From: Bacillota bacterium
GTDB lineage: Bacteria; Bacillota; Sulfobacillia; JAJYWN01
Assembly: GCA_021791495.1 (NCBI GenBank)
Contig: JAJYWN010000013.1
Span: forward strand, 62,001-126,000
Direction: 5' to 3'
Length of the DNA stretch: 64,000 bases
In this document: positions 33,228-60,177 of the stretch, one piece after another
Position numbering within the stretch: the first letter of the stretch is position 1
Layout of the letters: each line of letters starts with the position of its first letter
Position numbers and translations under genes: made by a program
The notes under the pieces: generated by a model
What the model was told of the DNA's origin: nothing
Seen by the model: the letters and a program-made list of their open reading frames with translations, nothing else
Databases searched by the model: none

Positions 33228-33228
33228 C

Positions 33229-35964
33229 ATGGAGAAGAAACCAGCGGGCAAAACCGTCGAGACCCTCAAGCATACCGAAGCCTCTCGCAAGAACATCCCC
33301 ACAGCCGAGTACCAGTCGGTCATGCGGAAGGAAGAGGAAAGTCCCATCCGCGTCGCCTACGAGCGCCGCAACCGGGACCTGGACCCGCAGCTCGTCTGGC
33401 GGGGTAAGGACGAGGCGGACTGGTCCGACTTGGTTGTCCACGCTCCGCCGCTGTATATCCAGGAGAAGGTCCATCCTAAGGTCCTGATCGACGACCTGAT
33501 GCGCCAGACCAAGGCTCAACAGGAGGCCAAGGCCACGCAGGTGCAGCTGGACCTGTTCTCCGACTTCAACGGTTTGCCGAACGAGAACGCCAAGACCGAG
33601 TTCTACCAGCACGATGCGAACTGGACGAACCGGATGATCCTCGGGGACAGCCTTCAGGTCATGGCCTCTTTGGCCGAGCGTGAAGGCCTGCGGGGCAAGG
33701 TCCAGTGCATTTACATCGACCCGCCGTACGGCATCAAGTTCAACTCCAACTTCCAGTGGTCTACGACAAGCCGTGATGTGAAAGACGGGAATGCCGACCA
33801 TATCACCAGAGAGCCTGAACAAGTCAAGGCCTTCAGGGACACTTGGCGTGACGGAGTGCATTCCTACCTCACCTATTTGCGGGATCGTCTAGTAGTAGCC
33901 CGAGACCTGCTAACTGAGAGCGGGTCCCTATTTGTGCAAATTGGCGACGAAAACGTGCATCTTGTGCGCACTGTTCTTGATGAGGTCTTCGGTGAAGCTC
34001 AGTTCGTAGGCCAGATTGCCGTAACGAAAACAACCGGACTGGGGACGGCGGATACGCTCCCCGGACGTCTTGACTATGTCCTGTGGTATTCGAAGAACAT
34101 GGAAGAGTCCAAGACGCGGTCCCTTCTGGTAGAAGGCAACGATCCGGAGGTCGCCGGGTACACACGGACTGACCCACAACGTCCCGAAGCCGGACCCTAC
34201 ATGAGTGGCGATCTGACGAAGCCGGGGCCGGGGCAGAAGTACGAAGTAAGCTTCTGTGGAAAGGTTTTCGATTCTGGTCGTCGTTGGTGGGGCATCCCGC
34301 CTTCGGCATTTCCCCGTTTGGAGAAGTCCGACCGCCTGTTGGCTACAGAGAACGTCTTGCGGTACAAGAGGTTCTACAGGGATTTCCCATTGGTCCAGTT
34401 AACCAATCTGTGGGCGGGGTTGGGTGGGGCTATGAACCCGGTTTACGTGGTCCAGACCAACCCGACCATAATTGAACGCTGCATCCTCATGTCGACGAAC
34501 CCTGGTGACCTGGTGCTAGACCCAACCTGCGGCTCTGGAACCACTGCCTATGTGGCAGAACAGTGGGGACGGCGATGGATTACCATTGATACTTCACGAG
34601 TTGCTCTGGCTCTGGCCCGAACTCGCATCATGGGTGCCCGCTACCCGTACTACCTGCTAGCCGACAGTCGAGATGGCCAAGTCAAGGAGGCTGAGGTCAG
34701 TCGGAGAGCTCCATCAGAGACACCGACACATGACAATGTGCGGTTTGGGTTTGTCTATGAGCGGATGCCGCATGTCACTCTGAAGTCGATCGTCAACAAC
34801 AACGAGATTGACGTCATCTGGGATGAGTATCGGCGGACTCTCGAACCGCTGCGCGGGGCGCTCAACAAGGCTCTGGGGATCAACTGGCAGGAATGGGAGA
34901 TTCCCCGCGACGCCGACGCCAAGTGGTCGGCCGAAGCGAAGAAGCTGCATGCACAGTGGTGGGAGCAGCGCATCGGCCGCCAGAAAGAGATCGGCGCCTC
35001 CATAGCCGCCAAAGCCGAGTTCGAGTACCTCTACGACAAACCCTACGAGGACAATAAGAAGGTCCGCGTCGCCGGCCCCTTCACGGTCGAGAGCCTTTCA
35101 CCCCACCGCGTCCTTGGGGTGGACGAGGACGACGAACTCATCGACACCGTGGCCGAATCGGCAGCCGGTGGCCTTGGAGGGGAGCAGGGCTTCGTCCAGA
35201 TGATCCTTGAAAACCTCCGCGTCGCCGGCGTCCAGCAGGCCCACAAGGATGACAAGATCGACTTCACCTCGATCACACCGTGGCCGGGGGAGCTGGTCTG
35301 CGCCGAGGGGCGCTACACCGAGGGCAACGCGGACAGCGGCACCGAGCGGCGCGCCGCCATCTTCGTCGGGCCGGAGTTTGGGACCGTGTCCCGCCCCGAC
35401 CTTGTGGCCGCAGCCAAGGAAGCCGCCGAGGCCGGCTTCGATGTGCTCGTCGCCTGCGCCTTTAACTACGACGCGCGTTCGACGGATTTCGACAAGCTGG
35501 GCCGAATTCCGGTGCTCAAGGCCCGGATGAACGCCGACCTCCACATGGCCGCCGACCTGAAGAACACCGGGAAGGGGAACCTCTTCGTCATCTTCGGCGA
35601 GCCCGACATCGACATCCTCCATGCCGACGGCGGCCAGATCAAGGTCAAGATCAACGGCGTGGACGTCTTCCACCCCAACACCGGCGAGGTCCGCAGCGAC
35701 GGCCCCGACGGCATCGCCTGCTGGTTCATTGACACCGACTACAACGAGGAAAGCTTCTTCGTCCGCCACGCCTACTTCCTCGGCGCCGGCGACCCCTATA
35801 AGGCGCTCAAGGTCTCGCTCAAGGCCGAAGTCAACGAAGACGCCTGGGCGACCTTGCACAGTGACACCTCCCGGCCCTTCGATAAGCCGAAGTCCGGCCG
35901 GATCGCGGTGAAGGTGATTAACCATCTGGGAGATGAGGTCATGAAGGTGTTTCGGGTGGGATAA
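33229..35964 (+). CDS. mod: Type III DNA methyltransferase, Mod subunit
   Basis: 911 aa from ATG at 33229 behind AAAGGGG; an upstream frame inside res is rejected. It is a beta-class N6-adenine methylase: motif IV IDPPYGIKFNSNFQ (~163-176) precedes motif I LDPTCGSGTTAYVAEQ (~430). The central target-recognition region (~175-515, about 33750-34780) uses visibly more A/T-rich codons than the flanks, suggesting a swapped specificity domain. The last ~225 residues (from ELVCAEGRYTEG at ~687 to KVFRVG) are the source of the repeats that recur seven times downstream. Mod provides recognition and methylation for the Res-Mod complex and can methylate alone. The gene looks intact. Confidence 0.95.
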   Translation: MEKKPAGKTVETLKHTEASRKNIPTAEYQSVMRKEEESPIRVAYERRNRDLDPQLVWRGKDEADWSDLVVHAPPLYIQEKVHPKVLIDDLMRQTKAQQEAKATQVQLDLFSDFNGLPNENAKTEFYQHDANWTNRMILGDSLQVMASLAEREGLRGKVQCIYIDPPYGIKFNSNFQWSTTSRDVKDGNADHITREPEQVKAFRDTWRDGVHSYLTYLRDRLVVARDLLTESGSLFVQIGDENVHLVRTVLDEVFGEAQFVGQIAVTKTTGLGTADTLPGRLDYVLWYSKNMEESKTRSLLVEGNDPEVAGYTRTDPQRPEAGPYMSGDLTKPGPGQKYEVSFCGKVFDSGRRWWGIPPSAFPRLEKSDRLLATENVLRYKRFYRDFPLVQLTNLWAGLGGAMNPVYVVQTNPTIIERCILMSTNPGDLVLDPTCGSGTTAYVAEQWGRRWITIDTSRVALALARTRIMGARYPYYLLADSRDGQVKEAEVSRRAPSETPTHDNVRFGFVYERMPHVTLKSIVNNNEIDVIWDEYRRTLEPLRGALNKALGINWQEWEIPRDADAKWSAEAKKLHAQWWEQRIGRQKEIGASIAAKAEFEYLYDKPYEDNKKVRVAGPFTVESLSPHRVLGVDEDDELIDTVAESAAGGLGGEQGFVQMILENLRVAGVQQAHKDDKIDFTSITPWPGELVCAEGRYTEGNADSGTERRAAIFVGPEFGTVSRPDLVAAAKEAAEAGFDVLVACAFNYDARSTDFDKLGRIPVLKARMNADLHMAADLKNTGKGNLFVIFGEPDIDILHADGGQIKVKINGVDVFHPNTGEVRSDGPDGIACWFIDTDYNEESFFVRHAYFLGAGDPYKALKVSLKAEVNEDAWATLHSDTSRPFDKPKSGRIAVKVINHLGDEVMKVFRVG

Positions 35965-36024: not shown

Positions 36025-39000
36025 ATGCAGTTCATAGCAAAGGGCCCGGACATTCCTGATGATCTATTGCAGGCGCATGAAGATGGAAGTGTGGTGTTTT
36101 TCTGCGGCGCGGGCATTTCTTACCCAGCCAGGCTGCCCGGGTTCAAGGAACTCGTGGACAGACTCTACCGACTCCTCGGAACTACGCGTACTGCCATAGA
36201 GACGAAAGCCCATAACCGCAAGCAGTTCGACGGTACTCTCGACCTGCTGGCAAAGGTGCCACCGACACCCACAATGCTTTGCTACAGCTGGCGCACAGCC
36301 GGGACGGGAAGTTGCGTCTCGTCACAACCAATCTTGACCGCATCTTCGAATGGGTAATCAGGTACAACAAGCAGCCAACCAACACTTACGTAGCGCCCGC
36401 GTTGCCGATTCCGAAGAACAGCCGTTGGGACGGTCTGGTCTATCTGCATGGTTTGTTGCCGGAAAACGATGACACTAGCGCACTTAACCAACTGGTGCTG
36501 ACCAGCGGTGACTTCGGACTCGCATACCTGACTGAACGTTGGGCAGCTCGCTTTGTGGGCGAACTATTCCGCAACTACACGGTCTGCTTTATAGGTTACA
36601 GCATAGATGACCCGATCCTGCGCTACATAATGGACGCGTTGGCAGCCGACCGGATGCTTGGAGAAGTGACGCCTCAAGCCTATGCTTTTGGTGACTATGC
36701 CCCCGGACAAGAGGATGACAAGACGGTCGAATGGGAGGCCAAGGGCGTCAAGCCCATCCTCTACCAGGTACCTGCCAAGACTCGTGACCACTCTATGCTC
36801 CATCGGACGTTGAAGTCTTGGGCAGAAACCTATCGCGATGGCATCCTCGGCAAGGAGCGCATCGTGGTGGACTATGCCATTGCGCGCCCGTCCGCGAGTA
36901 CCAGGCAAGATGATTTCGTCGGGCGCATGCTCTGGGCACTATCAGACAGGTCGGGCTTGCCCGCCAAGCGCTTCGCCGACTTTGATCCGGTGCCATCGCT
37001 GGATTGGCTTGAGGCCTTTTCAGCCGAGCGCTATCGGCATGGTGACTTGAGTCACTTCCAGATTGTCCCAGACACCAGAGTGAATGACAAACTGCGATTC
37101 AGCCTGGTCCGACGTCCAACACCATACAAAGATGCGCCGAAGATGACTTTGGTTTCAGGCGGGATTGTGGAGAGTCGATGGGATAAGGTGATGGAACAAC
37201 TGGGCCGATGGTTGGTGCGACACCTCGATGACCCTGCGTTGATCTTGTGGCTAGCACAGCAGGGTGGGCACCTGCACGATCGGTTGGCATGGCTGATCGA
37301 ACAGAAACTGAACGAGTTCTTGAGTCTTGAGCGCGAAGGCAAACTCGACGAGTTAGCGCGTATCAGGTCCCAGGCGCCAAGCGCAATCCCACGGCGGATC
37401 CTACGTCCCTTCTGGCACCTGCTGCTGACGGGGAGGGTGAAGTCGCCTTGGGGCGAACCAGACCTTTATCGCTGGATGGGCCGACTTAATCGCGAGGGAC
37501 TCACTCCGACGTTGCGTTTTGAGTTGCGCGAGTTGTTGGCCCCCAAAGTCGTGCTGGAAGCGCCCATCCCATGGCCTGGAACTGCGACGAAGGCAGAGAC
37601 CTCGGAGCGATTGGATGAGCTTATCGACTGGGAATTGGTGCTGGCTGCTGACAGCGTAGAAACATCTCTCCGCAATCTGGCGAAAGCCGAGAACTGGCAA
37701 GGTGCCTTACCGGCGCTGCTTGATGATTTTCAGCAACTGTTGCGTGACGCACTGGACCTTAAGCTTGAGCTAGGCGAGGGTGATGACCATAGCGACAGAT
37801 CGTATTCGGATCTCCCATCCATCAGCCCGTACGGGCAAGACCAGGAATTCCACGACTGGGTGGCGCTGATTGAACTGCTCCGTGATGCCTGGCTAGCGAC
37901 TCGCGAAATCGATTCCGACCGCGCCTCCCAGGTTGCGAAGGCGTGGTTTGCCATGCCGTACCCCACCTTCAAGCGGCTAGCACTGTTCGCGGCCAGTCAG
38001 GATGACTCCATTTTGCCGGATGAATGGGTGAACTGGCTTGTAAGCGATGGTGCTTGGTGGTTATGGTCTGACGATACTAGGCGCGAAACTCTGAGCCTTC
38101 TGGTGCTGCAGGGCCGTCATCTCACGCCCAAGGCCCAGGAACGGCTGGAAGCGGGGATTTTGAACGGTCCGCCGCGCGCTATGTGCCGGGACGACCTCAA
38201 GCCCGAACGCTGGAAAACCCAAGTGAACCACTCGGTCTGGTTGTGCCTAGCTAAGTTGCTGTCATCCGGTGTGGGACTTGGCCCGACTGCCGCCAAAAGG
38301 TTGACATCACTGTCGGCTGCACACCCGGACTGGCGATTGGCACAGGACGAAAGTGATGAACTTGTACAATGGATGAGTGGGACCGGCGACCCTAACCTTG
38401 GAGCCAGACGCGCAAACAATCGTGCGCCCAGGAAGAGAACTGAATTAGCCAAATGGTTGAGACAGTCGCGCTCTTCTCCAGAGTCTTTTGATGAGGACAC
38501 TTGGATGGAGACCTGCCGCACCCGTTTCTACCATTGTGCCCTCGCGTTGTGCGATCTTGCGCGCGATGGGGTATGGCCTTCCGCACGCTGGTCTGAAGCC
38601 CTGTATGCTTGGAGCGAAGAAGGGCTAGTACCGCGCTCGTGGCGATTCATCGCTCCTCTGGTCCATACCATTTCAGACGAGGTGCTGGCTGAAATAGCGC
38701 ACAGTATAACCTGGTGGCTGAAGGCTGTCTCACAATCCGTGGATCGCCATGAGGGCATCTTCCTGGATCTGTGCCGGCGAATCCTGGCCTTACCGCACAA
38801 AGATGGCGTGGATACCGATGAACCTCTCACCCGGGCCGTCAATCACCCTGTTGGCCATGTGACGCAGGCCTTGCTGAACGTGTGGTTGGAGCAGAAGCCG
38901 AATGACAACGAGCGGCTGCCCGCCGACTTGCAGCCCTTCTTCACTCAGCTGTGTGACAAGAGTGTGCCTCAGTTTCGCCACGGTCGCGTCCTGCTTGCAT

Positions 39001-39764
39001 CCCGCCTCATTCCCTTATTCCGAGTGGATAGGCCCTGGTCGGAGACCCATTTGCTGCCGCTTTTCGACTGGACGAAGGATGCGACCGAGGCACGTGCGGC
39101 CTGGACAGGTTTTCTGTGGTCCCCGCGCCTCTACAAGCCCCTTCTGACCGCGATGAAAGCACAGTTCCTAGACACCGTCCACCACTATGCAGAGCTGGGC
39201 AAGCATGCACAGCAATTCGCCGTATTCCTTACCTATGCTGCTCTGGATCCGGTGGACAGCTATACCTCGCAAGACTTCCGGGCCGCTTTTGGTGCATTAA
39301 CGCAGGAGGGCTTGCAGAAAGCTGCGCAGGCGCTCGTTCACGCCTTGGAAGGGGCTGGTAAGCAAAGAGAGGAATACTGGACCAATCGAGTTCTTCCGCT
39401 GTGGCAGAACGTCTGGCCTAAGTCCCTCCAACTCGCATCCAAGAAGATCACAGAGAGCCTTGCCCGACTCAGCGTCGACGCTAGCGGCAAGTTCCCAGCA
39501 GCACTAGCCACTGTCCAGGGCTGGTTGCAGCCGATTGAGCACCCGGATTTGGTCGTACACTTGCTACACGAATCGGGCTTACCCGGACGATTCCCGGAGG
39601 ATGCGCTAATACTCTTGAATGCTATCATGGACGATCAGCCTTGGTCGGTACGTGAACTGGAGCAGTGCTTAGCCGCTATTGCGCAGAGTGCGGCCCCGTT
39701 GCAGCAGGATCCTCGCTACCAGCGATTAGCAGAGTACGCCCGGCTGCACGGTCTCGGATCTTAA
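36025..39764 (+). pseudogene. SIR2-domain defence protein with internal deletion/frameshift
   Basis: ATG at 36025 after AGAGGG begins MQFIAKGPDIPDD and gives VVFFCGAGISYPARLPGFKE, the SIR2 NAD-binding motif. Near 36250 the frame changes: GTLDLLAKVPPT in the first frame is really KGATDTHNALLQLAHS in the second, which then continues as LRLVTTNLDRIFEWV, DGLVYLHG and VCFIGYSIDDPILRYIM, the remaining SIR2 motifs, and about 1,000 further residues. About 50 codons seem lost at the joint together with the phase. An intact form would be about 1,250 aa, like large SIR2 antiphage NADases. It is the only gene of cassette A. A sequencing error alone would not explain the missing segment. Confidence 0.8.
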
Positions 39765-39851: not shown

Positions 39852-40316
39852 TCCTCGATGTGCTCGTGGCCTGCGCCTTTAATTGCGACGCCCATTCCTC
39901 AGACTTCGACAGCCTTGGCCGCATTCCGGTGCTCAAGGCCCGGATGAACGCCGACCTCCACATGGCCGCCGACATGAAGAACACCGGCAAGAGCAACCTC
40001 TTTGTCATCTTCGGCGAGCCCGACATCGACATCCTCCCCGCCGAAAACGACCAAGTCAAGGTCAAGATCAACGGTGTCGATTACCGGCGAGGTGCGCAGC
40101 GACGGCCCCGGTGGCAGCGCCTGCTGGTTCATCGGCACCGACTACAACGAGGAAAGCTTCTTCGTCCGCCACGCCTACTTCCTCGGCGCTAACGACCCCT
40201 ACAAGGCCCTCAAGACCACCCTCAAGGCCGAGATCACGCCTTGGCCACCTTGCGCAGCGACACCTCCCGGGCCTTCGACAAGCCGAAGTCCGGCCGGACC
40301 GCGGTCAAGGCGATTG
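39852..40316 (+). repeat. mod 3'-end repeat, copy 1 (degenerate)
   Basis: Matches mod from the DVLVACAFNYDA segment (35440) to near IAVKVI, in the same orientation. It has two internal deletions: one removes the VFHPN codons before ITGEVR, another removes part of the NEDAW codons. It loses the final ~40 bp of mod. Type: GANDPYKALKTTLKAE. Separates SIR2 (A) from the ApeA-like gene (B). Confidence 0.88.
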
Positions 40317-41736: not shown

Positions 41737-41870
41737 AAAGACTCCCCCACTCCGAATGTTGTCGAAACCGAATTCCTCTCAAATACTCAGGTTTCCTTCC
41801 TAAGTTTGGAACTCAGAACATAAGATGCCATATCGGGAACTGCCTAAGGGAATGCGGTTACATTCCCGGC

Positions 41871-42262
41871 CTGACCCTTTTGCCGCTGCCAAAGAAGCCA
41901 CCGGGGCCGGCCTCGACGTCCTCGTGGCCTGCGCCTCTAGCTACGATGCCCGCTCCTCCGACTTCGACAGCCTTGGCCGCATTCCAGTGCTTAAGGCCCG
42001 GATGAACGCCGGCCTCCACATCGCCGCTGACCTGAAAAACACCGGGAAGGGCAACCTCTTCGTCATCTTCGGCGAGCCCGATATCGACATCCTCGACGCC
42101 GAAAACGGCCAGATCAAGGTCAAGATCAACGGCGTCGACGTCTTCCACCCCAACAACACCGGCGAGGCCTGCGGCGACGGCCCCGACGGCATCGCCTGCT
42201 GGTTCATTGACACCGACTGCAACGAGGAGAGCTTCCTCGTCCGCCGCGCCTACTTCCCCGGC
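41871..42262 (+). repeat. mod 3'-end repeat, copy 2 (3'-truncated)
   Basis: Matches mod from AAAKEAAEAGFDVLVACAF to about RHAYFLG, then diverges at CCCGGCTCCGAGATC, so the last ~190 bp of mod are missing. Some codons differ (ASSYDARSSDF; NNTGEACGDGPDG with one extra Asn). An open frame starting at 41825 covers it but has no independent support. Separates cassettes B and C. Confidence 0.87.
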
Positions 42263-42428
42263 TCCGAGATCTCCCAACACCCAGGGAGTTCATCCCACAC
42301 CCGAAGGTTTTCGGGGTCATAAGCAGAATATGGATTCCAGACATTCTGTCAAAGTCTGCAACCGATCCTTCTGCCGTGTCCCTTTCCTGTCGATTCAGCT
42401 CACGAGTATCACATTGGGGGGTAATTGA

Positions 42429-43555: not shown

Positions 43556-44129
43556 CTGCCCCGACCTTGTCGCCGCCGCCAAGGAGGCCGCCGAGGCCGG
43601 CTTCGATGTGCTCGTCGCCTGCGCCTTCAACTACGACGCCCGCTCCTCCGACTTCGATAGCCTCGGCCGCATCCCGGTGCTCAAGGCCCGGATGAACACC
43701 GACCTCCACATGGCCGCCGACCTGAAAAACACGGGGAAGGGGAACCTCTTCGTCATCTTCGGCGAGCCGGACATTGACATCCTCCCCGCCGAAAACGGCC
43801 AGATCAAGGTCAAGATCAATGGCGTCGACGTCTTCCACCCCAACACCGGCGAAGTGCGCAGCGACGGCCCCGACGGCATCGCCTGCTGGTTCATCGACAC
43901 CGACTACAACGAGGAAAGCTTCTTCGTCCGCCACGCCTACTTCCTCGGCGCCGGTGCCCCCTACAAAGCGCTCAGGGTCTCTCTGAAAGCTGAGATCAAT
44001 GAAGACGCCTGGGCCACCTTGCACAGCGACATCTCCCGGCCGTTCGATAGGCCGAAGTCTGGCCGGATAGCGGTGAAGGTAATCAACCATCTGGGCGATG
44101 AGGTCATGAAGGTGTTTCGGGTGCAATAA
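43556..44129 (+). repeat. mod 3'-end repeat, copy 3 (open reading frame)
   Basis: Matches mod from CPDLVAAAKEAAEAGF to the stop (KVFRVQ). The frame is open for 202 aa from a GTG at 43521 that immediately follows the stop of the HsdR-N gene, so a stand-alone Mod C-terminal domain could be translated by coupling. Type: GAGAPYKALRVSLKAE. No deletions inside. After the stop, homology continues into 44130-44290 shared with 55140-55335. Confidence 0.9.
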
Positions 44130-44281
44130 CCGCACCTCGGGCGGCAACGGGAGCCGGGCGGGTTGACCGCTCGGTTAGCGATGAACGAAACAGCGATAGG
44201 CAAAGGGTCTGCTTGGGCACATACGGCTTACACAGGGGAGATTGCCATCAGTGTCTACGTTGAACCCGTTGTCCGCTGCGT
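44130..44281 (+). pseudogene. Scrap of a paralogue of the 55266 gene and its leader
   Basis: Sequence after mod copy 3 matches that after copy 6: GGCGGGTTGACCGCTCGGT, then GGGCACATACGG and CAGGGGAGATTGCCAT, followed by GTCTACGTTGAACCC (VYVEPVVR against VYVEPFVR in the 283-aa protein at 55266). It breaks off where the IS21-like array begins. The cassette-G gene, or a relative, therefore once stood here. Confidence 0.65.
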
Positions 44282-44856: not shown

Positions 44857-46023
44857 ATGTCATTTGACTTCAAGGTTCTCGGGGAAAAACTGAGAGAGGC
44901 GAGGACTAGCCTAACCATTGAAGTGGCTGAGGCTGCGCACGAGATTGGGGTAGATGAGGGAAAGTACAGGCTGATCGAACAGGGAGGAACAGGGGTAACG
45001 GGCGACCAGCTAGTCATTCTAGCTCGCCTCTTCCGCCGGGATTTTCGGTTCTTTGTTACAGGACGATATCCCTCGGCCGAATCCCAGGTCAAGCAGCTGT
45101 TCCGCCGTTACTCGCAGTTGAGCAAGAGTGACCGCATAGCAATACAGGAGTTTGTTCGGCTGTGCGAGTATGAGGCCTTTCTATATGACCAGCTTGGAGA
45201 GACTTTCTCTGATGTTCCTGACTACAGCAGTTCTTTGCCAGTCACGTCTGACCGACGTCAGGGTGAGTATGTGGCGGTTTGCGAGCGAAACCGTCTGCAC
45301 TTGGATGATCAGCCAATCGATGATGTCTTCAAACTTGTCAGGTCGCAGGGCATCCACGTCTTTCGCCGTCGATTGGCCGACAGCAAAGTTTCTGGGCTGT
45401 ATATAAGGCATCCGGCCGCAGGCCATTGCATTCTCATAAACTACCACGAAGATCTCTTTCGGCAGAATTTCTCGTTGGCACACGAGTATTGTCACGCCCT
45501 GGTGGACGCCAACGACGAGCAATTGTTAACATACGAAACGGAACAGTCACTACCTGCAGAGAAGAGGGCACATAGGTTTGCCGGGGGCTTCCTGGTCCCC
45601 AAGGGCTACGTGCAGACCCACTTCACGAGGCCACAGACATATGAGGGTTGGGTTGACATCACCAGGCAGATGTCGCAGGTCTGCAAGGTGAACGGAATTG
45701 TGTCGGTGATCAGACTGACGGAAATCAACTGGCTTGACAGCAGGAGTAGGACCAAAGAGAAACTGCTTCAAGACCGAGATATCGTCACTCCGCAGAAGGG
45801 TAAGGCCGATTCAGAAATACCTCCGGATCTGTCACCCGGTACTCGGCAGCGTGTCCTTCGCCTCTTGGAGAGCGGTTTGTCCTTTCACTTCCTGAATCTG
45901 TGCAGGCAGGCCTACGAGAACCGGAAGGTTACTTTCGCCAAAGTTATTGAGATGTTGGGTCTCCCGTATGACGAGGCGGAGGAGATTCTCGCCAGCCTGC
46001 ACTTCCTGGTGGAGGTGGAATGA
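44857..46023 (+). CDS. XRE-HTH and ImmA/IrrE metallopeptidase-domain protein
   Basis: 388 aa. The N-terminal XRE-type helix-turn-helix is LGEKLREARTSLTIEVAEAA and YRLIEQGGTGVTGDQLVILA (~7-55). The ImmA/IrrE zinc-peptidase motif HEYCHALVD (~209) follows NFSLA, with ERAHRFAGGFLVP-like sequence after it (KRAHRFAGGFLVP). The C-terminal helical segment is ALLESGLSFHFLNLCRQAY-like. Proteins of this kind act as antitoxins or stress-responsive repressor proteases. The next gene, a PIN protein, starts right after its stop codon, so the two form a toxin-antitoxin-like operon in cassette D. Confidence 0.88.
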   Translation: MSFDFKVLGEKLREARTSLTIEVAEAAHEIGVDEGKYRLIEQGGTGVTGDQLVILARLFRRDFRFFVTGRYPSAESQVKQLFRRYSQLSKSDRIAIQEFVRLCEYEAFLYDQLGETFSDVPDYSSSLPVTSDRRQGEYVAVCERNRLHLDDQPIDDVFKLVRSQGIHVFRRRLADSKVSGLYIRHPAAGHCILINYHEDLFRQNFSLAHEYCHALVDANDEQLLTYETEQSLPAEKRAHRFAGGFLVPKGYVQTHFTRPQTYEGWVDITRQMSQVCKVNGIVSVIRLTEINWLDSRSRTKEKLLQDRDIVTPQKGKADSEIPPDLSPGTRQRVLRLLESGLSFHFLNLCRQAYENRKVTFAKVIEMLGLPYDEAEEILASLHFLVEVE

Positions 46024-46557
46024 GTGACTCCGAAAACGGCGACCTTGGACACGAGCCTCTTTGTGAACTTCTACCATATCGGTCAGTCTCGCCTCTTTGA
46101 CCGCCTTGAGTATTCACTTCTGACAACTATTCACGTTATCCTAGAGCTTCAAGGTTTCAGGACAGATGAGATCAGGAAGTCGTTCTCGGACCAGCTAGGG
46201 GTAAGAATTTTCCGGATGCCCTTGACACTTGACGACCTCGTGGAGATGGCCAATGTTCCTTTTTCGAAGCAGTGCAGCGACGTGGAGCTGTCTTGTTTCG
46301 TCCTGGCAGCAAGGATGGGTGCGAGCGTGCTATGTGACGACACGAGGGCTGTTAGATTCGCGAGGCGCTACATCAGTTTTCCCGAAGTGGTCGGGACAGC
46401 CGAGATACTGATACAGGCATACTTGCTTAACCTTGTTGGTGATGCAGACCTCAAGGACTTCAGCGCGTGTCTAGAGAGACACAAGTTTAGGCTACCGTTC
46501 GACCTCTGTTACGAAGCGGCCGGACGCCGATATCTGACAAAACCATCACCCGAATAG
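46024..46557 (+). CDS. PIN-domain protein, toxin partner of the XRE-ImmA gene
   Basis: 177 aa; GTG at 46024 directly abuts the upstream TGA, indicating coupled translation. PIN-like features: TLDTSLFVNFYHIGQ at the N-terminus (first Asp), an acidic residue in VILELQGFRT, and DVELSCFVLAARMGASVLCD followed by DTRAVRFARRY (C-terminal acidic residues). PIN toxins are RNases. Pairs of ImmA/IrrE-XRE proteins with downstream PIN proteins occur as mobile toxin-antitoxin-like modules; the exact family name is uncertain. Confidence 0.78.
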   Translation: MTPKTATLDTSLFVNFYHIGQSRLFDRLEYSLLTTIHVILELQGFRTDEIRKSFSDQLGVRIFRMPLTLDDLVEMANVPFSKQCSDVELSCFVLAARMGASVLCDDTRAVRFARRYISFPEVVGTAEILIQAYLLNLVGDADLKDFSACLERHKFRLPFDLCYEAAGRRYLTKPSPE

Positions 46558-46650: not shown

Positions 46651-47323
46651 TGCAACTTGGTCTGCGCCGAAGGGCGCTACACCGAGGGCGACGCGGACAC
46701 CGGCATTGAGCGGCGCGCCGCCATCTTCGTCGGGCCGGAGTTCGGACCGTGTCCCGCCCCGACCTTGTCGCAGCCGCCCGCGAAGCCGCCGAGGCCGGCT
46801 TTGACGTGCTCGTTGCCTGCGCCTTCAACTATGACGCCCGTTTGACGGATTTCGACAAACTGGGCCGAATTCCGGTGCTTAAGGCCAGGATGAACGCCGA
46901 CCTCCACATGGCCGACGACCTGAAGAATACCTGCAAGGGCAACCTCTTCGTCATCTTTGGCGATCCCGACATTGACTCCTCCCCGCCGAAAACGACCAGA
47001 TCAAGGTTAAGATCAACGGCGTCGACGTCTTCCACCCCAACACCGGCGAGGTCCGCAGCGACGGCCCCGACGGCATCGCCCGCTGGTTCATTGACACCGA
47101 CTACAACGAGGAGAGCTTCTTCGTCCGCCACGCCTACTTCCTCGGCGCCGGCGACCCCTACAAGGCGCTCAAGGTCTCGCTTAAGGCCGAGGTCAACGAA
47201 GACGCCTGGGCCACCTTGCACAGCGACACCTCCCGGCCTTTCGACAAGCCGAAGTCGGGCCGGATCACGGTGAAGGTGATCAACCATCTGGGGGATGAAG
47301 TGATGAAGGTGTTTCGCATCTAG
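46651..47323 (+). repeat. mod 3'-end repeat, copy 4 (full length, frameshifted)
   Basis: Starts further upstream than most copies, at LVCAEGRYTEGDADTG, and runs to a stop (KVFRI-stop) after KVINHLGDEVM. A missing G in GTTCGGACCGTG and a small deletion in the IDILP codons break the frame. Type: GAGDPYKALKVSLKAEVNED, the same as mod itself. Separates cassettes D and E. Confidence 0.9.
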
Positions 47324-47442: not shown

Positions 47443-48726
47443 ATGTACGTCTGCGCGGTTCACATTGAGCACTTTCGCTGTTTCGAGGACGCTTGGGTCT
47501 TCCCAAATCAGGGTCTCAATCTCCTCCTAGGGCCTAACAACAGCGGCAAGAGCACGATCCTCCAGGCCATAGGACTTGTCCTTGATCCGAACACTGGTTG
47601 GTACCGGGATGACGTCATAGGTCAATTTGACTTCTTCAGAGGAGACACCTCGAGACCCATCCAGGTACGGCTCTGGTTAAGGGCGCACCCGGACGAGCCC
47701 GAATCCAGCAAAGTCAAGTTCTACGACAGACTCAGTAAGTGGTCTATCAAGTCATCCAAGAGAGGACGCACGTTGGAGTCCCTGATCGTTGACCCCGTGG
47801 GCGGCGATTTGCCTCCTCATGAAGAACTTCTGGCCTTGGAGTTAACCGCCAAATGGAATGAAGCGGTCCAACTGGCCGAAGCGGCGGTCAATATTGTGGA
47901 CGAATCGGGAAACCCGACTCCCTTTAGCATTGACCAAAAGCGACAACTGGGTTTCCGCTTGGTACCGGCCACCCGCAGCCTTGACCAACAGATGTCATTC
48001 GGCCGGCGCAGCTTGCTTTCAAGGTCTCTCGAGGACGGGAGTCTGGACACGGCACTTAGGGATATACGTCGGAAGCTTGAATCGATCAAGAGCGATGTCA
48101 CGGGTGCCGAAGGCGTGGTGAGTCTTCTGTCTTGGCTTGGCAGGCTAGTACCAGGCGGCTTTCTCAAAGATGCTTCCGGTCACTTGCTTGAGGAGTTCAC
48201 GCTCACGTTCCTTGGGGCCAGCATTAGCGACCTTCGTAGTGCTACATCATTGGCTACGTCCATCAAAAATGATGGAGACTCCACGTCCCTCGCTCTTCCA
48301 TGGAACCTAGAAGGTACTGGCGTGCAGAGTCTGCTTCTTCTTCGGGCAATCATTGAATCGGCGAAATCCAGTACGGTTCGGCCTATCACCGCTATCGAGG
48401 AGCCGGAGCAACACCTGGGACCTTCACTGGCGCGGTGGTTGTTTGCAGGTCTCTTTCCAGCGATGAAGTCCAAGCCCGAGGACCCAGAAGTAAACACTGA
48501 AGAACCTACTCTCAGCCAGCTGTTCGTTACAACTCACTCGGCAGCACTAGTGGCCGAGCTTAGAGGAATCGACCCCGTTCTACTGTTGCCCACAAGGTCT
48601 GTTAAGGGCGATGGCAAGGCAGTTGTCCTGACCGCGAGCGCATTGCCAACCTCTACAAAGAAGTCCTTCGAACGTTATCGAGAGGAGTACAGCAAAGCGC
48701 TGTTAGCCAAGGCGTCCTCGTGGTAG
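47443..48726 (+). CDS. OLD-type AAA ATPase (GajA N-terminal half)
   Basis: 427 aa; ATG at 47443 follows GGAGGTTGGAG. ABC/SMC-like ATPase of the OLD family: VHIEHFRCFEDAWVF, Walker A LLLGPNNSGKSTILQAI (~27-43), Walker B AITAIEEPEQHLGPSLARWL, and the H-loop-like FVTTHSAALVAEL. The protein ends where the TOPRIM domain of a normal OLD nuclease would begin; that domain is encoded by the next gene in the -1 frame, overlapping by 7 nt. GajA of Gabija is one polypeptide with both domains and works with GajB. Either a natural split or a frameshift; see the findings. First gene of cassette E. Confidence 0.87.
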   Translation: MYVCAVHIEHFRCFEDAWVFPNQGLNLLLGPNNSGKSTILQAIGLVLDPNTGWYRDDVIGQFDFFRGDTSRPIQVRLWLRAHPDEPESSKVKFYDRLSKWSIKSSKRGRTLESLIVDPVGGDLPPHEELLALELTAKWNEAVQLAEAAVNIVDESGNPTPFSIDQKRQLGFRLVPATRSLDQQMSFGRRSLLSRSLEDGSLDTALRDIRRKLESIKSDVTGAEGVVSLLSWLGRLVPGGFLKDASGHLLEEFTLTFLGASISDLRSATSLATSIKNDGDSTSLALPWNLEGTGVQSLLLLRAIIESAKSSTVRPITAIEEPEQHLGPSLARWLFAGLFPAMKSKPEDPEVNTEEPTLSQLFVTTHSAALVAELRGIDPVLLLPTRSVKGDGKAVVLTASALPTSTKKSFERYREEYSKALLAKASSW

Positions 48727-49430
48727 ATGGCCCAAGCGAAGTTGGTTTCTTACCCGCGGCGTTCAATGCACTGGCCAATGGCAAGTATGAGGAGAATCCT
48801 TTGCTTCGGGGACTGGAGATCGTCAACGGTGAAAACTGCACGGAGGCCCTCAAACGCGCCAAGGACCTGGTCAGTTTTGGGAAGCCCGTCTATCTCCTTG
48901 TTGATTATGACGTAGACAAAGGCAAGAAAGACGTTACGATGAACGACATTCGTGCTCGCGCAAAAGAAGCGGGGGTCACGCTGTTCTATTGGGCCGACGA
49001 TGGGCCGGTTCCATACGCTGGCGGGTGCGACCTGGAAGTTGTGCTGGCCGCTCAGGCAGACCCCAGCTCACTTCTTGAGGCAATCAAGGCTGCTTACCGT
49101 GACCCTGGGCATGCTCTGGAAGAGGGTGCATGGCAGGCAGCCCGCGATTTGGTCGAACAGCATTACAGGTCAAGGCTACCCACCCGGATGCCAGACAACA
49201 TCGAGGAGTTCTCCCTTCAGAGCCTTGATGGCGAGGAAGTCCGACGAGCGTTCCTGTTCGCCCTTCTGCATGGACCTCACTGTTGTAAGTCCGTGAGAGA
49301 TATGCGCATTATTGCTGAGGAATTGGGCGGTCGGGGAGGGCTCCCCAAAGCTGTGGACTCTCTCAGAATACGACTGCTCAGGACGATGGGGGGGGAAAGC
49401 GGTGGTCAAGACGACGCTCCCCTCGTCTGA
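48720..49430 (+). CDS. TOPRIM nuclease protein (GajA C-terminal half)
   Basis: 236 aa from GTG at 48720 (AAGG 7 nt upstream) that overlaps the ATPase stop as GTGGTAG. The TOPRIM motifs of OLD nucleases are present: VVDGPSEVGFLPAAFNAL (catalytic acidic residue in the first strand), PVYLLVDYDVDKGK (DxD) and GGCDLEVVL. In the preceding sequence this frame reads SQGVLVVDGP, the usual linker of fused OLD proteins, so the two halves probably derive from one gene. With the ATPase it should reconstitute a sequence-specific nicking or cleaving nuclease activated by phage-induced nucleotide depletion (Gabija knowledge). Confidence 0.83.
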   Translation: MVDGPSEVGFLPAAFNALANGKYEENPLLRGLEIVNGENCTEALKRAKDLVSFGKPVYLLVDYDVDKGKKDVTMNDIRARAKEAGVTLFYWADDGPVPYAGGCDLEVVLAAQADPSSLLEAIKAAYRDPGHALEEGAWQAARDLVEQHYRSRLPTRMPDNIEEFSLQSLDGEEVRRAFLFALLHGPHCCKSVRDMRIIAEELGGRGGLPKAVDSLRIRLLRTMGGESGGQDDAPLV

Positions 49431-51342
49431 ACTATGCATCGACGATGACCAGGCCGCAGTCCTGAAGCGACTCTTGGAAGTATCAAGGGTCATGGTGGAG
49501 GCACCGCCAGGGACCGGGAAGACCTTCATAGGCGTGTGCGCTGCCACTCAGGCTTATCGCCAAGGTCGCACCAGCCAGGATCGTCCAGCGCTCTTCCTCA
49601 CTTTCTCCCGAAACGCCAGGGCCCAAATCGAATGGGAGATAAACAGGCAGACCAGGAATGGTTGGCTTACGAACGATGAACAGCGAACCCTTCAAGTCAG
49701 CAATTTCCATGCATTCTACTTCGAGATTCTCAGGCGACGCGCCGGGATTTGGGGGAGGGTCGGAGACCTAAGACCTGCGACTAGCGCCGAGAGCGCGCGG
49801 CGTGAAGCCGTGGCACGTGAGAAGCTGCTACAGTGTCCGAACTTGTCTGACAGGTCAGAATCGACAAAGGAGAACAGGATGGGATCGCTGTTCCTGGCCC
49901 ATGACATGGCGGGCATCTCTTCTGAGGTGGCCGAGGTCGTAGCAGATGTGGCCAGAACCGGTCTCAAGAACGGAAGACCCGACTACGACGATTTCGCCCC
50001 CCTATTCAGACGCCTATTAGCCGTCTCACCCGCAATCCTGATCTGGCTGCGTGCCAAGTATCCATTTGTGATCCTGGACGAGTTTCAGGATACCGATGAC
50101 ACCCAGTGGGAGATTCTCCGCCTCTGGCAGCCAACCTCACTCCTCGTCCTCTATGATCGGCATCAGATGATCTACGAGTGGCGGCACGCGTCCACTTCCC
50201 GACCTCAACAACTGGCCAGGGAGTTTGGAATTGACACCGATTGCCAGCTACAGCTGGCCACGTTACATAGGTCGGAGACCGAAAGGGAATTCGGGGAGTT
50301 CATCCGTGAGTTGAGAGCAGACAACCTGCTTGGTACAGGGGTCTCCTCGAAGACCACGCGACCCTGGCTTCGGATGATTCCTTATACGCCTTCAGATGAT
50401 CGCCCGGAGAAGGCGGAACAACGATGCCTTAGAGCCGTTCGGAAGGCCATCTGCACTTCCGGAACTACTGGGGTTATCACCCGCACCAATAAACTTGCGG
50501 AGTACTTGAGGCTAAAACTGTCCCGTCAGCCAGCCACCTATAGAGCCAGCTACTTCCCATGCTCTCTAATAGGCGGAGAAAACAGCCCAGACGAATGGCT
50601 TCGGGATGCGGTGGAGGGGCTTCGCCATACTCAGACAAAACCAGACCTGAAGAGATGGGTGGCCTCAATCCTGGTCCGGCTCTTGGTCGGCGATTGTATG
50701 GTCGGTGGCAGGGACATGAACTTGGTCACACAGCTGACCAAGCCAGCCGAACAGTTGTTCAAACGGTATAAGGAACCAGCACCAGATATGATCTGGCTCA
50801 GGAACCGACTCGCTCGTTGGTGGGATGACCCGGCTATGGATTCCAGTCAGATGGTTGTCGAAGGCCTTCAGTTTGCGGTCGAAGCGGCAGGAAAACTCAC
50901 AAAGGGGCATGCCTACCCTGACCGGGACATGGCCTTCTACGTTCGGAGGCTCGTGACCGCAGCAAGGTCCTCTAGCCATGGGGAGCCTTGGAGTGAGTTC
51001 TGCGACCGGCTGGAATCCGCCATCCTTGGAGGAACGCACTTCATTCGCTCAGCACCACGTGACACAGGGGTCTTCATTCTGACGGCCCATCAAAGCAAGG
51101 GATGGGGCTTTGACCACGTCATCCTGCCCTGGCTTTCGGAAGCGGGTGAGCCGTTCACGAGAACCCCCTTTCGGGCATCGGAAGAAGGGGACAGGAGGCT
51201 TCTCTATGTAGCTTTCACAAGGGCCAAGAAGCGAGTAACCGTGATCTACCCGGAGGAGAAGCCGGCACGCATCCTGAGTCTATGGAAGCTTCTCAGCAAG
51301 GCCGAACCAACGGAAGTGGTCCAAATGACTCTTGACCTATGA
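49402..51342 (+). CDS. UvrD/Rep-like helicase (GajB-like)
   Basis: 646 aa; GTG at 49402 after a G-rich site, overlapping the TOPRIM gene by 29 nt. SF1 helicase: Walker A VEAPPGTGKTFIGVCA (~30-45), motif Ia FLTFSRNARAQIEWE, Walker B FVILDEFQDTDDTQWEIL (~222-239), motif III LLVLYDRHQMIYEWR, motif V LTAHQSKGWGFDHVILP, motif VI RRLLYVAFTRAKKRVTV. Gene order ATPase-TOPRIM-helicase is that of Gabija (gajA-gajB), where the helicase-like protein forms a complex with GajA. It is larger than the ~500-aa GajB I know, so it may be a Gabija relative rather than a canonical system. Confidence 0.85.
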   Translation: MVKTTLPSSELCIDDDQAAVLKRLLEVSRVMVEAPPGTGKTFIGVCAATQAYRQGRTSQDRPALFLTFSRNARAQIEWEINRQTRNGWLTNDEQRTLQVSNFHAFYFEILRRRAGIWGRVGDLRPATSAESARREAVAREKLLQCPNLSDRSESTKENRMGSLFLAHDMAGISSEVAEVVADVARTGLKNGRPDYDDFAPLFRRLLAVSPAILIWLRAKYPFVILDEFQDTDDTQWEILRLWQPTSLLVLYDRHQMIYEWRHASTSRPQQLAREFGIDTDCQLQLATLHRSETEREFGEFIRELRADNLLGTGVSSKTTRPWLRMIPYTPSDDRPEKAEQRCLRAVRKAICTSGTTGVITRTNKLAEYLRLKLSRQPATYRASYFPCSLIGGENSPDEWLRDAVEGLRHTQTKPDLKRWVASILVRLLVGDCMVGGRDMNLVTQLTKPAEQLFKRYKEPAPDMIWLRNRLARWWDDPAMDSSQMVVEGLQFAVEAAGKLTKGHAYPDRDMAFYVRRLVTAARSSSHGEPWSEFCDRLESAILGGTHFIRSAPRDTGVFILTAHQSKGWGFDHVILPWLSEAGEPFTRTPFRASEEGDRRLLYVAFTRAKKRVTVIYPEEKPARILSLWKLLSKAEPTEVVQMTLDL

Positions 51343-51367: not shown

Positions 51368-52633
51368 TTGACCAAGAGATGTTGCGCCAATTGCTTTTCT
51401 GACGAACATATCCAGCGGTTCATCAAGGATCTAGACGAAATCGGCAACTGCGATTACTGCGCTGCCACTCAGGTTCATACTGGACTGACAAATGAGGTCG
51501 GGGAATTCCTTCGAGAGGGCCTAGAAAAAGCGTATCAAGACGTAGATTCCGCCGGTATTCCGTATGACAGTGCCGAAGGTGGCTACTTGACCGGGACCAG
51601 TGTGATTGACGTGCTACTTGATGAACTAAGTATCCTCTCGGAAGACTCAACTGCCAAAGCCTATGACTTGCTTAAGGACCTGCTATCCGACGGCGGCCCT
51701 TCCCCCCGTGAGATACAGAGAGGTGCAGACGATTGGCTATCGGGCGGAGACGCTCTCTTGGTTGAGCGTGGGTTTTGGTCTGACGACGATGCGGAACTCA
51801 CTTCATGGAGACAGTTCAAGCGCCACATTAAGTACTTCGCCCGTTTCTTCGACTTGGGACGTCCCACCCGAAGAACGATGCTGCAGGCTGTAGGTCAGCT
51901 CATGAACGAAGTTGCTACTGTTCTTTCAAGAGGAAGTTTGTTGTACCGTGCCAGAGTCTTGGAAAAGCGGCCGACCGCTGGGTGGTCCGCGCAGGACGAG
52001 CTTGGTCCTCCCCCCGCAAGCAGTGCCATCCACAGCAGGATGAGCCCTGACGGGATTTCTTACATGTATCTGTCCGATAGCGAGGAGACTTGCCTTGCAG
52101 AGAAGCGCCCGGAGGTCGGGGATCGTGTTGGCATAGGCATTTTCCAGCTGACTGTGCCTCTAATAGTAGTAAATCTCGGAGAGGTGTCACGGAAAAGCAT
52201 CTTCGACCCATCCTACAGCCATAGGGTGTCTATGGCCCGATCGTTTCTGGATGATTTCGTGGATGAGATATCAAGGCCACTCTCGCCAAGGGAGACAGGA
52301 CTGGAATATGTACCGACCCAAGTCCTGACAGAGTACATCAGGAGCCTTGGTTTCCAAGGGGTCAAGTACAGGAGCAGCCAAGTCAGTTCAGGAGTCAACT
52401 ACGTGCTGTTCTGCGGTCCTCAAGATAAGCCCCAAGGCACCCGACGCCCGCGGCAACGCAAGAGAGGCAAATACGTGATTCCACCTTTCACGAGGTGGAT
52501 GGTGCTTGACGACTATAAGCTCGTGAAGGTCATGTCCGTGTTATACGCTTCCGAATCGATGATCAGGCCTCTTCCGAACAAGTCCTCCGGCAACAGGCAG
52601 GCGAATGGGAAGAGGCAACGGAACCCTACCTAG
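51368..52633 (+). CDS. RES-domain protein with zinc-ribbon/HEPN-RES N-terminus
   Basis: 421 aa; TTG at 51368 is chosen for the GGGGAGGGGGA site; an overlapping TTG at 51332 is possible. N-terminal Cys pairs (RCCANCF ... NCDYC) suggest a zinc ribbon, followed by a helical domain (TLSRGSLLYRAR boundary near 200). The RES domain has LLYRARVLE, PPPASSAIHSRMSPDGISYM, YLSDSEETCLAEKRP and LEYVPTQVLTEYIRSLG. RES toxins degrade NAD with phosphate. Here it directly follows the helicase on the same strand, so it is either a fourth component of the Gabija-like operon or a separate NAD-depleting toxin. No Xre antitoxin is adjacent. Confidence 0.82.
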   Translation: MTKRCCANCFSDEHIQRFIKDLDEIGNCDYCAATQVHTGLTNEVGEFLREGLEKAYQDVDSAGIPYDSAEGGYLTGTSVIDVLLDELSILSEDSTAKAYDLLKDLLSDGGPSPREIQRGADDWLSGGDALLVERGFWSDDDAELTSWRQFKRHIKYFARFFDLGRPTRRTMLQAVGQLMNEVATVLSRGSLLYRARVLEKRPTAGWSAQDELGPPPASSAIHSRMSPDGISYMYLSDSEETCLAEKRPEVGDRVGIGIFQLTVPLIVVNLGEVSRKSIFDPSYSHRVSMARSFLDDFVDEISRPLSPRETGLEYVPTQVLTEYIRSLGFQGVKYRSSQVSSGVNYVLFCGPQDKPQGTRRPRQRKRGKYVIPPFTRWMVLDDYKLVKVMSVLYASESMIRPLPNKSSGNRQANGKRQRNPT

Positions 52634-52682: not shown

Positions 52683-52964
52683 TGCCCAGACCTTGTCGCC
52701 GCCTCCCGTGAGGCCGCCGAGGCCGGCTTCGGTGTGCTCGTGGCCTGCGCCTTTAACTACGACGCACACTCCCCCGACTTCGACAGCCTTGGCCGCATTC
52801 CGATGCTCAAGGCTCGCATGAACCCGATCTTCACATGGCTGCCGACCTGAAGAACACGGGGAAGGGGAACCTTTTCGTCATCTTCGGCGAGCCCGACCAT
52901 CTACATCCTCGACGCCGAGAACGGCCAGATCAAGGTCAAGATCGACGGCGTTGACGTCTTCCAC
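52683..52964 (+). repeat. mod 3'-end repeat, copy 5 (truncated, frameshifted)
   Basis: Matches mod from PDLVAAxxEAAEAGF to GVDVFH, where it ends abruptly at the 3' end of a minus-strand gene. Small indels near ARMNPIFTW and GEPDHLH break the frame. More than 280 bp of the mod end is missing. Separates cassettes E and F. Confidence 0.86.
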
Positions 52965-54506: not shown

Positions 54507-54655
54507 CCATCTCTGAAGAGCTTTCTGGAAGCAGGGTTGCGGTTCCTACGGGAACGTAAGCCAGTTGGAATAGGGGTGCGCGTCCTTGCCTTGTCGGCCC
54601 CTACCGACTGGCGATGGACAAGAAGGGTTGATTTGAGACCAATACGACACCCGCT

Positions 54656-55139
54656 CCTCCGCCTTCGACAGCCTTGGCCGGATTCGGGTGCTCAAGGCCC
54701 GGATGAACGCCGAACTCCACATGGCCGCCGACCTGAAGAACACGGGGAAGGGGAACCTCTTCGTCATCTTCGGCGAGCCCGACATCGACAGCCTCCCCGC
54801 CGAAAACGCCAGATCAAGGTCGAGATTAACGGTGTCGACGTCTTCCACCCCAACACCGGCCAGGTGCGCAGCGACGGCCCCGACGGCATCGCCCGCTGGT
54901 TCATTGACACCGACTACAACGAAGAGAGCTTCTTCGTCCGCCACGCCTACTTCCTCGGCGTCAACGACCCCTACAAGGCCCTCAAAACCACCCTCAGGGC
55001 CGAGATCAATGAAGACGCCTGGACCACCTTGCACAGCGACACCTCCCGGCCCTTCGACAAGCCGAAATCCGGCCGGATCGCGGTGAAGGTGATCAACCAC
55101 TTGGGGGATGAGGTTATGAAGGTGTTTAGGGTGCCATGA
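54656..55139 (+). repeat. mod 3'-end repeat, copy 6
   Basis: Matches mod from RSxFDSLGR to the stop (KVFRVP). One base is lost near the AENG codons (GAAAACGCCAGATC), shifting the frame. Type: GVNDPYKALKTTLRAE. It is followed by the same ~150-bp tail as copy 3, leading to the gene at 55266. Separates cassettes F and G. Confidence 0.9.
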
Positions 55140-55265: not shown

Positions 55266-56117
55266 ATGAGTTCCTGCATGCCTGACTCCGGTAGATGCGA
55301 ACGCGTCTACGTTGAACCCTTTGTCCGTTTCCTTAACTCGGAATGCGGGACCGCCTACAAGTTCAAAGCCTGTTTGGACGTTCAGGACCGGGTCAACCCA
55401 CAACCAGAGATTCTATACGTGGATGATCAACTGCCCAAAGGCCTCAAGAACCTGGTCGTGGAGCGCAAGTCGATAGTGTGGCCCAAGGACCACGCAAAGC
55501 ACCATAGCAGCTTCCACGTCGTGGCGGACATGGTGGAGAAACCCCTGTCCGGCCTTCTCGGAGATGCGCCGTATCTTCTGACACTCCCTGGGCCGATAAG
55601 AGGCACTAAGTCGGAGATCAGAGGCCTGGGATTGCAGATTCTAAGCGAAGCCGAGAAGCGCTTGGATGCGTTGAAGGCGGGGCATCCGATCGGCAGGCGC
55701 GGTAGGTTGTGGTGGGTTTTGCAGAGACAGGAAGAGGGCGAACGTGATTACTGGGAGCCCGACTCTGGGCTCATCGTCCAGCAGCGAGGTAGTGACTATC
55801 CAACTATCGAGGAATACCCTCATGCTCTGGCTGGCGTCCAGCGACTTGTGGATCAAACCTTGCGACGCTGCACGGCGAAGTTCAAACGGCACCCGGATGC
55901 CAGACGCGTCGTGCTCCTCGAGTACTACTCCGACTTCTACCTTGGTGAGGACACTTTCAGAACGATGCTCCAATCCTGTCCGCCTCCTGCCGATGTACAT
56001 GAGGTTTGGCTGAGAAGCGAGGTGTGGATTACCGACTTTGAGCAGGACGTTTTCTTCCACAAGCTCTATCCGGTGATTGATGGGCAAGGAGAGAACAAGG
56101 TGGGGACTGTGCCCTAA
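55266..56117 (+). CDS. Unrecognised 283-aa protein, possible ExK nuclease
   Basis: ATG at 55266 follows AGGGGAG. I do not recognise the family. The N-terminal part has RVYVEPFVRFLNSECG, QPEILYVDDQ and LKNLVVERKSIVWP (~45-70), a PE...ERK arrangement that would fit a divergent PD-(D/E)xK nuclease. Further on are RGRLWWVLQRQEEGERDYW and RRVVLLEYYSDFYLGEDTF, ordinary globular sequence. A scrap of its 5' end also occurs at 44250-44281 after another mod repeat, so the gene travels with that repeat. First gene of cassette G. Confidence 0.6.
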   Translation: MSSCMPDSGRCERVYVEPFVRFLNSECGTAYKFKACLDVQDRVNPQPEILYVDDQLPKGLKNLVVERKSIVWPKDHAKHHSSFHVVADMVEKPLSGLLGDAPYLLTLPGPIRGTKSEIRGLGLQILSEAEKRLDALKAGHPIGRRGRLWWVLQRQEEGERDYWEPDSGLIVQQRGSDYPTIEEYPHALAGVQRLVDQTLRRCTAKFKRHPDARRVVLLEYYSDFYLGEDTFRTMLQSCPPPADVHEVWLRSEVWITDFEQDVFFHKLYPVIDGQGENKVGTVP

Positions 56118-56303
56118 GAGCATTGGCCCTGGTCAGCATCGTCCAAGTCATTGGCCGGAAAGCGGACGGGCAGAATGCACCTTGTCGGCCACCTCAAGGG
56201 AAAGTGGTGCCCGCCAGCTGTCCGACGAATTGGCAGCGCACCCGCTGTGCCAGTGGAGCTCCTACGGGAAGCGTTGAATTGCGGCGGGTGGGAGCTGAAT
56301 ACC

Positions 56304-57053
56304 ATGGCGATATCTGAGAAGACACGGAAGATCCTTTGGGCCCGCTCTGGGAACAGATGCGCACTGTGCAGGTGCGAACTCACGACCTCGGGCCTGGACG
56401 GGTCAGCGGCGACCGTGTTGGGCGAGGAGTGCCACATTGTAGGTCGCCAGCCGGCGGGTCCGCGCGGGATGTCCGAAGCCAATCCTGGAGCCGACCATTA
56501 CGACAACCTTATCCTCCTGTGCCGGAATTGTCACAAGCTTGTAGACAGCAACCCTGCAGTGTATACCGTCGAGATGCTTACCCTGCAGAAGGGCGCCCAT
56601 GAATCCTGGGTACGGGCAAACGTCGAAAGGAATCGGGGCAAGTCCCGTACAGGGGGGGATGACGATCCGAATTCTGATGGAGTCACCCTTCTCCCCAGGG
56701 TTCAGTCAGGTATCGATCTATGCAACATACTGAGGGGAGCTTATGCCTATCGTTTTGGACACGACGAGGCCAATGACCGAGAGGAGTCCGACTTGCTCGC
56801 TTACTTCTTCCAAGAGATCGAGGACTGGGGGGATCTGTTAAGTGATATGAGTATGGGCAAGGTTGTTGAAACCGAGTTTCGGTTGGGACAGCTCCTCGCG
56901 GAGATGAGAGATAGGGGCTTCTTGGTCTTTGGGATCGGGCGTACCGAGAGGCACACCATCGGCAAGTCCAGGGATCCCTGGCGTGTCGCCTATGTCCAGG
57001 TCGTTAGAGAGGGGAACCCTGGCGTAGTCGGAGGCCCCTCAGGCTCTGACTAA
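56304..57053 (+). CDS. HNH endonuclease
   Basis: 249 aa; ATG at 56304 (MAISEKTRKILWARSGNRCA) follows GGGAG; the open frame extends 51 codons upstream without a better start. Typical HNH nuclease: CALCRCEL, EECHIVGRQPAGPRG (first His), NLILLCRNCHKLVDSNP (Asn, CxxC, His), then WVRANVERNRG. The C-terminal ~130 residues (GIDLCNILRGAYAYRFGHDE ... FLVFGIGRTERHTIG) form an unrecognised domain, possibly a sensor. Same strand as the 283-aa gene, about 190 bp downstream. Confidence 0.85.
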   Translation: MAISEKTRKILWARSGNRCALCRCELTTSGLDGSAATVLGEECHIVGRQPAGPRGMSEANPGADHYDNLILLCRNCHKLVDSNPAVYTVEMLTLQKGAHESWVRANVERNRGKSRTGGDDDPNSDGVTLLPRVQSGIDLCNILRGAYAYRFGHDEANDREESDLLAYFFQEIEDWGDLLSDMSMGKVVETEFRLGQLLAEMRDRGFLVFGIGRTERHTIGKSRDPWRVAYVQVVREGNPGVVGGPSGSD

Positions 57054-59450: not shown

Positions 59451-59512
59451 AGACTCCGATGTCGGTGTCAAGTCCGGATCGAAGTGCCTATCAAGGCCGG
59501 ATCGGAATTCCT

Positions 59513-60177
59513 TCGCCGAGGGGCGCTAAGCCGAGGGCGACGAGTACACTGGCACCGGGCGGCGCGCCGCCATCTTCGTCGGACCGGAGTTCGGGACCGT
59601 GTCGCGTCCCGACCTTGTCGCCGCCGCCCGCGAGGCCGCCGAGGCCGGCTTCGATGTGCTCGTGGCCTGCGCTTTTAACTATGACGCCCACTTCTCCGAC
59701 TTCGATAGCCTTGGGCGCATTCCGGTGCTCAAGGCCCGGATGAACGCCGACCTCCACATGACCGCCGACTTGAAGAACACGGGAAAGGGCAACCTCTTCG
59801 TCATCTTTGGCGAGCCCGACATTGACATCCTCCCCGCCGAAGACGGCCAGATCAAGGTTAAGATCAACGGTGTCGACGTCTTCCACCCCAACACCGGCGA
59901 GGTGCGCAGCGACGGCCCCGACGGGATCGCCTGCTGGTTCATCGACACCGACTACAACGAGGAGAGCTTCTTCGTCCGCCACGCCTACTTCCTCGGCGTC
60001 AACGACCCCTACAAGGCCCTCAAGACCACCCTCAAGGCCGAGATCAACGAAGACGCCTGGGCCACCTTGCACAGCGACACCTCCCGGCCCTTCGACAAGC
60101 CGAAGTCTGGCCGGATCGCGGTGAAGGTGATCAACCATCTGGGGGATGAGGTCATGAAGGTGTTCAGGGTAGGGTGA
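59513..60177 (+). repeat. mod 3'-end repeat, copy 7 (nearly intact)
   Basis: Starts at the AEGR segment of mod (one change makes TAC a TAA: CGCTAAGCCGAGGG) and runs to the stop (KVFRVG). From a GTG at 59599 the frame is open for 192 aa with all conserved segments present. Type: GVNDPYKALKTTLKAE. It is the last copy seen; what follows may be the oldest or the outer flank of the array. Confidence 0.91.

Follow-up and report, generated by a model that had tools for sequence, protein, structure and literature searches.

The 64,000-nucleotide stretch of DNA analysed here (the window) contains a gajA gene whose OLD-type ATPase and TOPRIM halves lie in different reading frames, followed by gajB. This arrangement raises the question of whether the two halves are separate subunits of a working nuclease or the remains of a single damaged gene. 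Gabija protects bacteria against phages by means of a 4:4 GajA-GajB complex that nicks DNA. The initial annotation described the locus as Gabija-like, with the TOPRIM part continuing in the -1 frame after a GTGGTAG overlap, and proposed that the products may assemble as a two-chain GajA.

The locus is a Gabija anti-phage operon of the ordinary two-gene kind, encoding a class 2 OLD nuclease (GajA) and a UvrD-type helicase (GajB), and the frames and coordinates of the split are confirmed (Table 1). The ATPase half matches positions 1-211 of the PADLOC GajA profile PDLC04168 (E 4e-22) and the Pfam families AAA_21/AAA_15, and carries a Walker A motif (GPNNSGKS), a Walker B region (AIEEPEQ) and a TTHS motif. 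The TOPRIM half, a class 2 OLD domain that is complete when the -1 frame is read from 48702, matches that profile at positions 355-484 (E 2.5e-10). The adjacent ORF, which overlaps the TOPRIM ORF by 29 nt, encodes a UvrD/PcrA/Rep-like helicase recognized by both Pfam (UvrD-helicase, E 7.5e-25) and PADLOC (GajB, E 3e-49). Codon usage across the operon is atypical: its GC3 is about 0.61, whereas the window's Res and Mod genes have values of 0.76-0.84.

Table 1. Features of the Gabija operon and of the mod repeats around it.
Feature	Coordinates	Strand	Evidence
GajA N-terminal half, OLD/ABC ATPase ORF, 427 aa (ATG at 47443, TAG at 48724-48726)	47443-48726	+	PADLOC, Pfam, homology to fused L009 GajA
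TOPRIM frame, C-terminal half of GajA (open from 48606, homology beginning at about 48708, stop at 49430)	48606-49430	+	PADLOC GajA, fused relatives, fold model
Separate TOPRIM ORF, if any, 236 aa	48720-49430	+	
Frame break in the motif LLAK/GVLVVDG, net one base fewer than fused relatives	48708-48714	+	tblastn of fused relatives, consensus of 30 relatives
GTGGTAG, sole possible TOPRIM-frame start, overlapping the ATPase stop	48720-48726	+	sequence, start-codon scan
GajB, UvrD-like helicase (GTG start at 49402)	49402-51342	+	Pfam, PADLOC, L009 GajB
Full mod, type III methylase	33088-35964		
mod 3'-end copies	39855-40315, 41864-42266, 43558-44133, 46658-47316, 52684-52964, 54643-55133, 59511-60173	+	83-94% identical
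mod 3'-end copies, contig C8	136571-137085 and on to contig end		
Degenerate mod 3'-end pieces, contig C24			

The nearest copies found are in metagenome-assembled genomes labelled Aneurinibacillus sp. (L009; DYFA01000069), Syntrophomonas sp. and Anaerovorax odorimutans (L010 and L011). In each, gajA is a single fused gene for a protein of 655-658 aa and gajB follows with an overlap, so that the window shares with them the OLD ATPase half, the TOPRIM half, the UvrD-type helicase, and their order and spacing, and differs in its broken frame and in one catalytic residue discussed below. GajA is 44% identical to the L009 protein and 35% identical to those of L010/L011. By halves, the ATPase part is 42-44% identical to residues 1-418 of the L009 protein and the TOPRIM part 44%/35% identical to the fused relatives; GajB is 46% identical to that of L009. 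In the PDB, a profile built from two of the fused relatives matched the structures of Bacillus cereus GajA and the OLD nuclease of Thermus.

Homologues with the same ATPase/TOPRIM split were sought among these relatives, with a classic GajA profile in 398 genomes of the same phylum, and with a second GajA profile, and none was found. The classic profile gave 59 GajA/OLD matches of 370-744 aa in 51 genomes, all of them single-frame, one having an internal stop; the six matches to the second profile, partly at the same loci, were likewise unbroken. When the TOPRIM half was searched against 201 related genomes, only the window itself matched, and no relatives of this half were obtained from viral contigs (single-sequence and profile scans) or from plasmids (tblastn).

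In tblastn, the fused L009 GajA (658 aa) aligns collinearly with the window over both frames (E = 4e-143), its residues 1-418 with 47443-48717 and residues 414-655 with 48702-49427. Thus, the two ORFs represent one ancestral gene in two frames rather than a chance pair. The break falls within a motif of the family. Thirty relatives give the consensus LFAKG(V/I)ILVEG at the junction, and the window breaks between the K and the G, such that the ATPase ORF ends in ...ALLAKASSW and the TOPRIM frame, as the initial annotation had seen, reads SQGVLVVDGP upstream of GTG 48720. This single break aside, gajA (in both its halves) and gajB are intact over their 4 kb, with the Walker A, Walker B, DxD and helicase motifs retained.

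The complete TOPRIM frame, read from 48702, was modelled with 21 sequences at a pLDDT of 89. The best fold matches of this model are the C-terminal regions of XccOLD and BpOLD (PDB 6njv and 6nk8), with TM of about 0.5 and sequence identity of 12-14%; both of these come from intact fused class 2 OLD proteins, a class described as synonymous with GajA (PMC10568477). The model opens with a core strand, GVLVV, at residues 4-8. GTG 48720 corresponds to residue 7, the fourth residue of this strand, and a chain started there lacks residues 4-6, three of the five strand residues. The shortened chain was itself modelled from three sequences with a pLDDT of 58, which is too poor, and not comparable with the model of the full frame from 21 sequences. 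The acidic residue that follows the strand is Asp (VVDG) in the window and Glu in the other 20 of 21 aligned TOPRIM domains; the DxD motif is kept in the window as DYD (D62 and D64). In the alignment this Asp coincides with E379 of B. cereus GajA, whose replacement by alanine abolishes cleavage (PMC8136825); the TOPRIM glutamate has been called invariant (PMC10781630).

The operon is situated within a defence island that also encodes type III restriction-modification. Beginning at 39.8 kb and continuing to the contig end, the defence cargo genes are separated by copies of the mod 3' end; these copies measure up to about 660 nt, mostly end near the mod stop codon and, in the contig of the window, all lie on the + strand. 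In a sample of 299 genomes, a related mod C-terminus gave ten protein-level matches here and one each in 15 other genomes. It is possible that this array grew as cargo was acquired step by step through recombination at the 3' end of mod. Three of the fragments, at 46658-47316, 52684-52964 and 54643-55133, have single-base deletions relative to full mod. Directly downstream of mod, the gene for the SIR2-domain defence protein Dsr1 (36025-39764) is frame-broken as well: positions 1-77 of the Dsr1 profile match 36025-36255 and positions 100-1273 match another frame from about 36249, with roughly twenty codons missing.

Other cargo occupies the neighbouring intervals. An XRE-type HTH and IrrE-like (M78) protein, RmrA-like in PADLOC, is encoded between two mod copies at 44857-46557, and directly downstream of it lies the gene for a 177-aa protein that matches PDC-S70 weakly. 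The gene directly downstream of GajB (51368-52633) encodes a HEPN/RES-domain protein and is probably a toxin-type cargo gene. A further interval between mod copies (55266-57053) contains a 283-aa protein without matches and then an HNH-domain protein that resembles CBASS SAVED/HNH effectors.

These observations are probably best explained by a genuine and recent frame break in a canonical Gabija locus, which has left GajA inactivated or crippled. The gene would have lost a net one base at about 48708-48714, inside the first strand of the TOPRIM domain. The main product of the DNA as it stands would be an ATPase-only GajA of 427 aa, and any TOPRIM product would have to arise by reinitiation at GTG 48720, without three of the five first-strand residues and with Asp in place of the catalytic Glu. 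We infer that the nuclease activity of GajA, and hence Gabija defence, has most likely been lost or severely reduced, and that gajA is most likely a young pseudogene or crippled allele within a decaying defence island. The age of the break is likewise deduced; the split looks recent, in support of the earlier suspicion. Two points count against this reading: the remainder of the 4 kb is intact, whereas a gene long dead would carry more damage, and Asp in place of Glu might still permit metal binding. The frame-broken Dsr1 of the same island fits decay better than design.

The organism might instead possess one continuous gajA frame, the lost base being an artefact of the draft, metagenome-type assembly (81 contigs). 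Restoring a single base at the junction would by itself give an ordinary fused GajA, and the remainder of the operon is intact. Frame breaks were scanned for by codon usage in native genes only, as the detector failed to call the atypical Gabija operon coding. The scan, which recovers about a third (35%) of simulated one-base deletions, gave four hits in the roughly 336 kb outside the window, of which one is credible; the other three were discarded, since one fell at a masked stretch and two in genes of low complexity. In contrast, the same scan of a genome of the same class (G025, a single contig of 3.57 Mb; loci L032-L047) reported 149 sites in 320 kb that look like frame breaks or stops, and this intended clean control served as a positive control instead. 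The comparison indicates that the assembly of the window is not generally indel-ridden. Furthermore, the break site lacks a long homopolymer, the loss of roughly 20 codons from Dsr1 is not the type of change produced by a one-base error, and the Glu-to-Asp change does not depend on the indel. The broken Dsr1, the single-base deletions in the mod fragments and the small number of native frame breaks together favour a real break, and an assembly or sequencing error is somewhat unlikely.

The break load of G025 is as expected of an unpolished long-read assembly, and splits in such genomes are to be distrusted.

A working two-chain GajA, in which ATPase and TOPRIM chains made separately by termination and reinitiation at GTGGTAG assemble with GajB in the manner of AriA and AriB in PARIS, is quite unlikely. 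Reinitiation is physically possible, given that GTG 48720 overlaps the ATPase stop and is preceded by AAGG 7 nt upstream; the 236-aa TOPRIM ORF is otherwise open and keeps its DxD, and in PARIS an OLD ATPase and a TOPRIM do occur as distinct polypeptides (PMC10568477). However, this start lies inside the first core strand, the catalytic Glu is replaced, the same split is absent from the homologues searched, and Dsr1 is also broken. A TOPRIM-only construct of B. cereus GajA (residues 348-578) was inactive even with its first strand kept (PMC8136825). The specific case of a natural two-chain Gabija, having a TOPRIM subunit that begins at GTG 48720, an Asp-type active site and a fold completed on the ATPase subunit and GajB, is distinctly improbable; if true, it would illustrate how fused class 2 OLD proteins can give rise to split ones of the PARIS type.

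The likeness to PARIS (AriA ATPase plus AriB TOPRIM, sometimes fused as AriAB) consists in the OLD-type ATPase and TOPRIM being on separate ORFs, and the ATPase half matches AriA (6e-22) almost as well as GajA (4e-22). In contrast, the TOPRIM half matches GajA profiles only and not AriB, and the next gene encodes a UvrD-type GajB, which PARIS lacks. Membership of PARIS was rejected on these grounds, no AriB being found beside the AriA-like gene.

Programmed -1 ribosomal frameshifting, by which ATPase-only and full-length GajA would both be made, was rejected as extremely improbable: although both frames are open together over 48606-48723 and a -1 step would restore the motif LLAKGVLVVDG, that interval contains no X XXY YYZ slippery heptamer, in agreement with the initial annotation, re-pairing is poor at every position around the junction, RNA downstream is no more stably folded than shuffled sequence (z of +0.2 to +1.4) and forms no stimulatory stem-loop, and the fused relatives need no shift.

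With a damaged gajA as the preferred reading, the locus is one more Gabija. The array of methylase 3' ends around it is the more unusual feature of this DNA and may merit a study of its own. The case counsels caution: a domain split seen in a single draft genome calls for comparison with relatives before it is taken for a new architecture.
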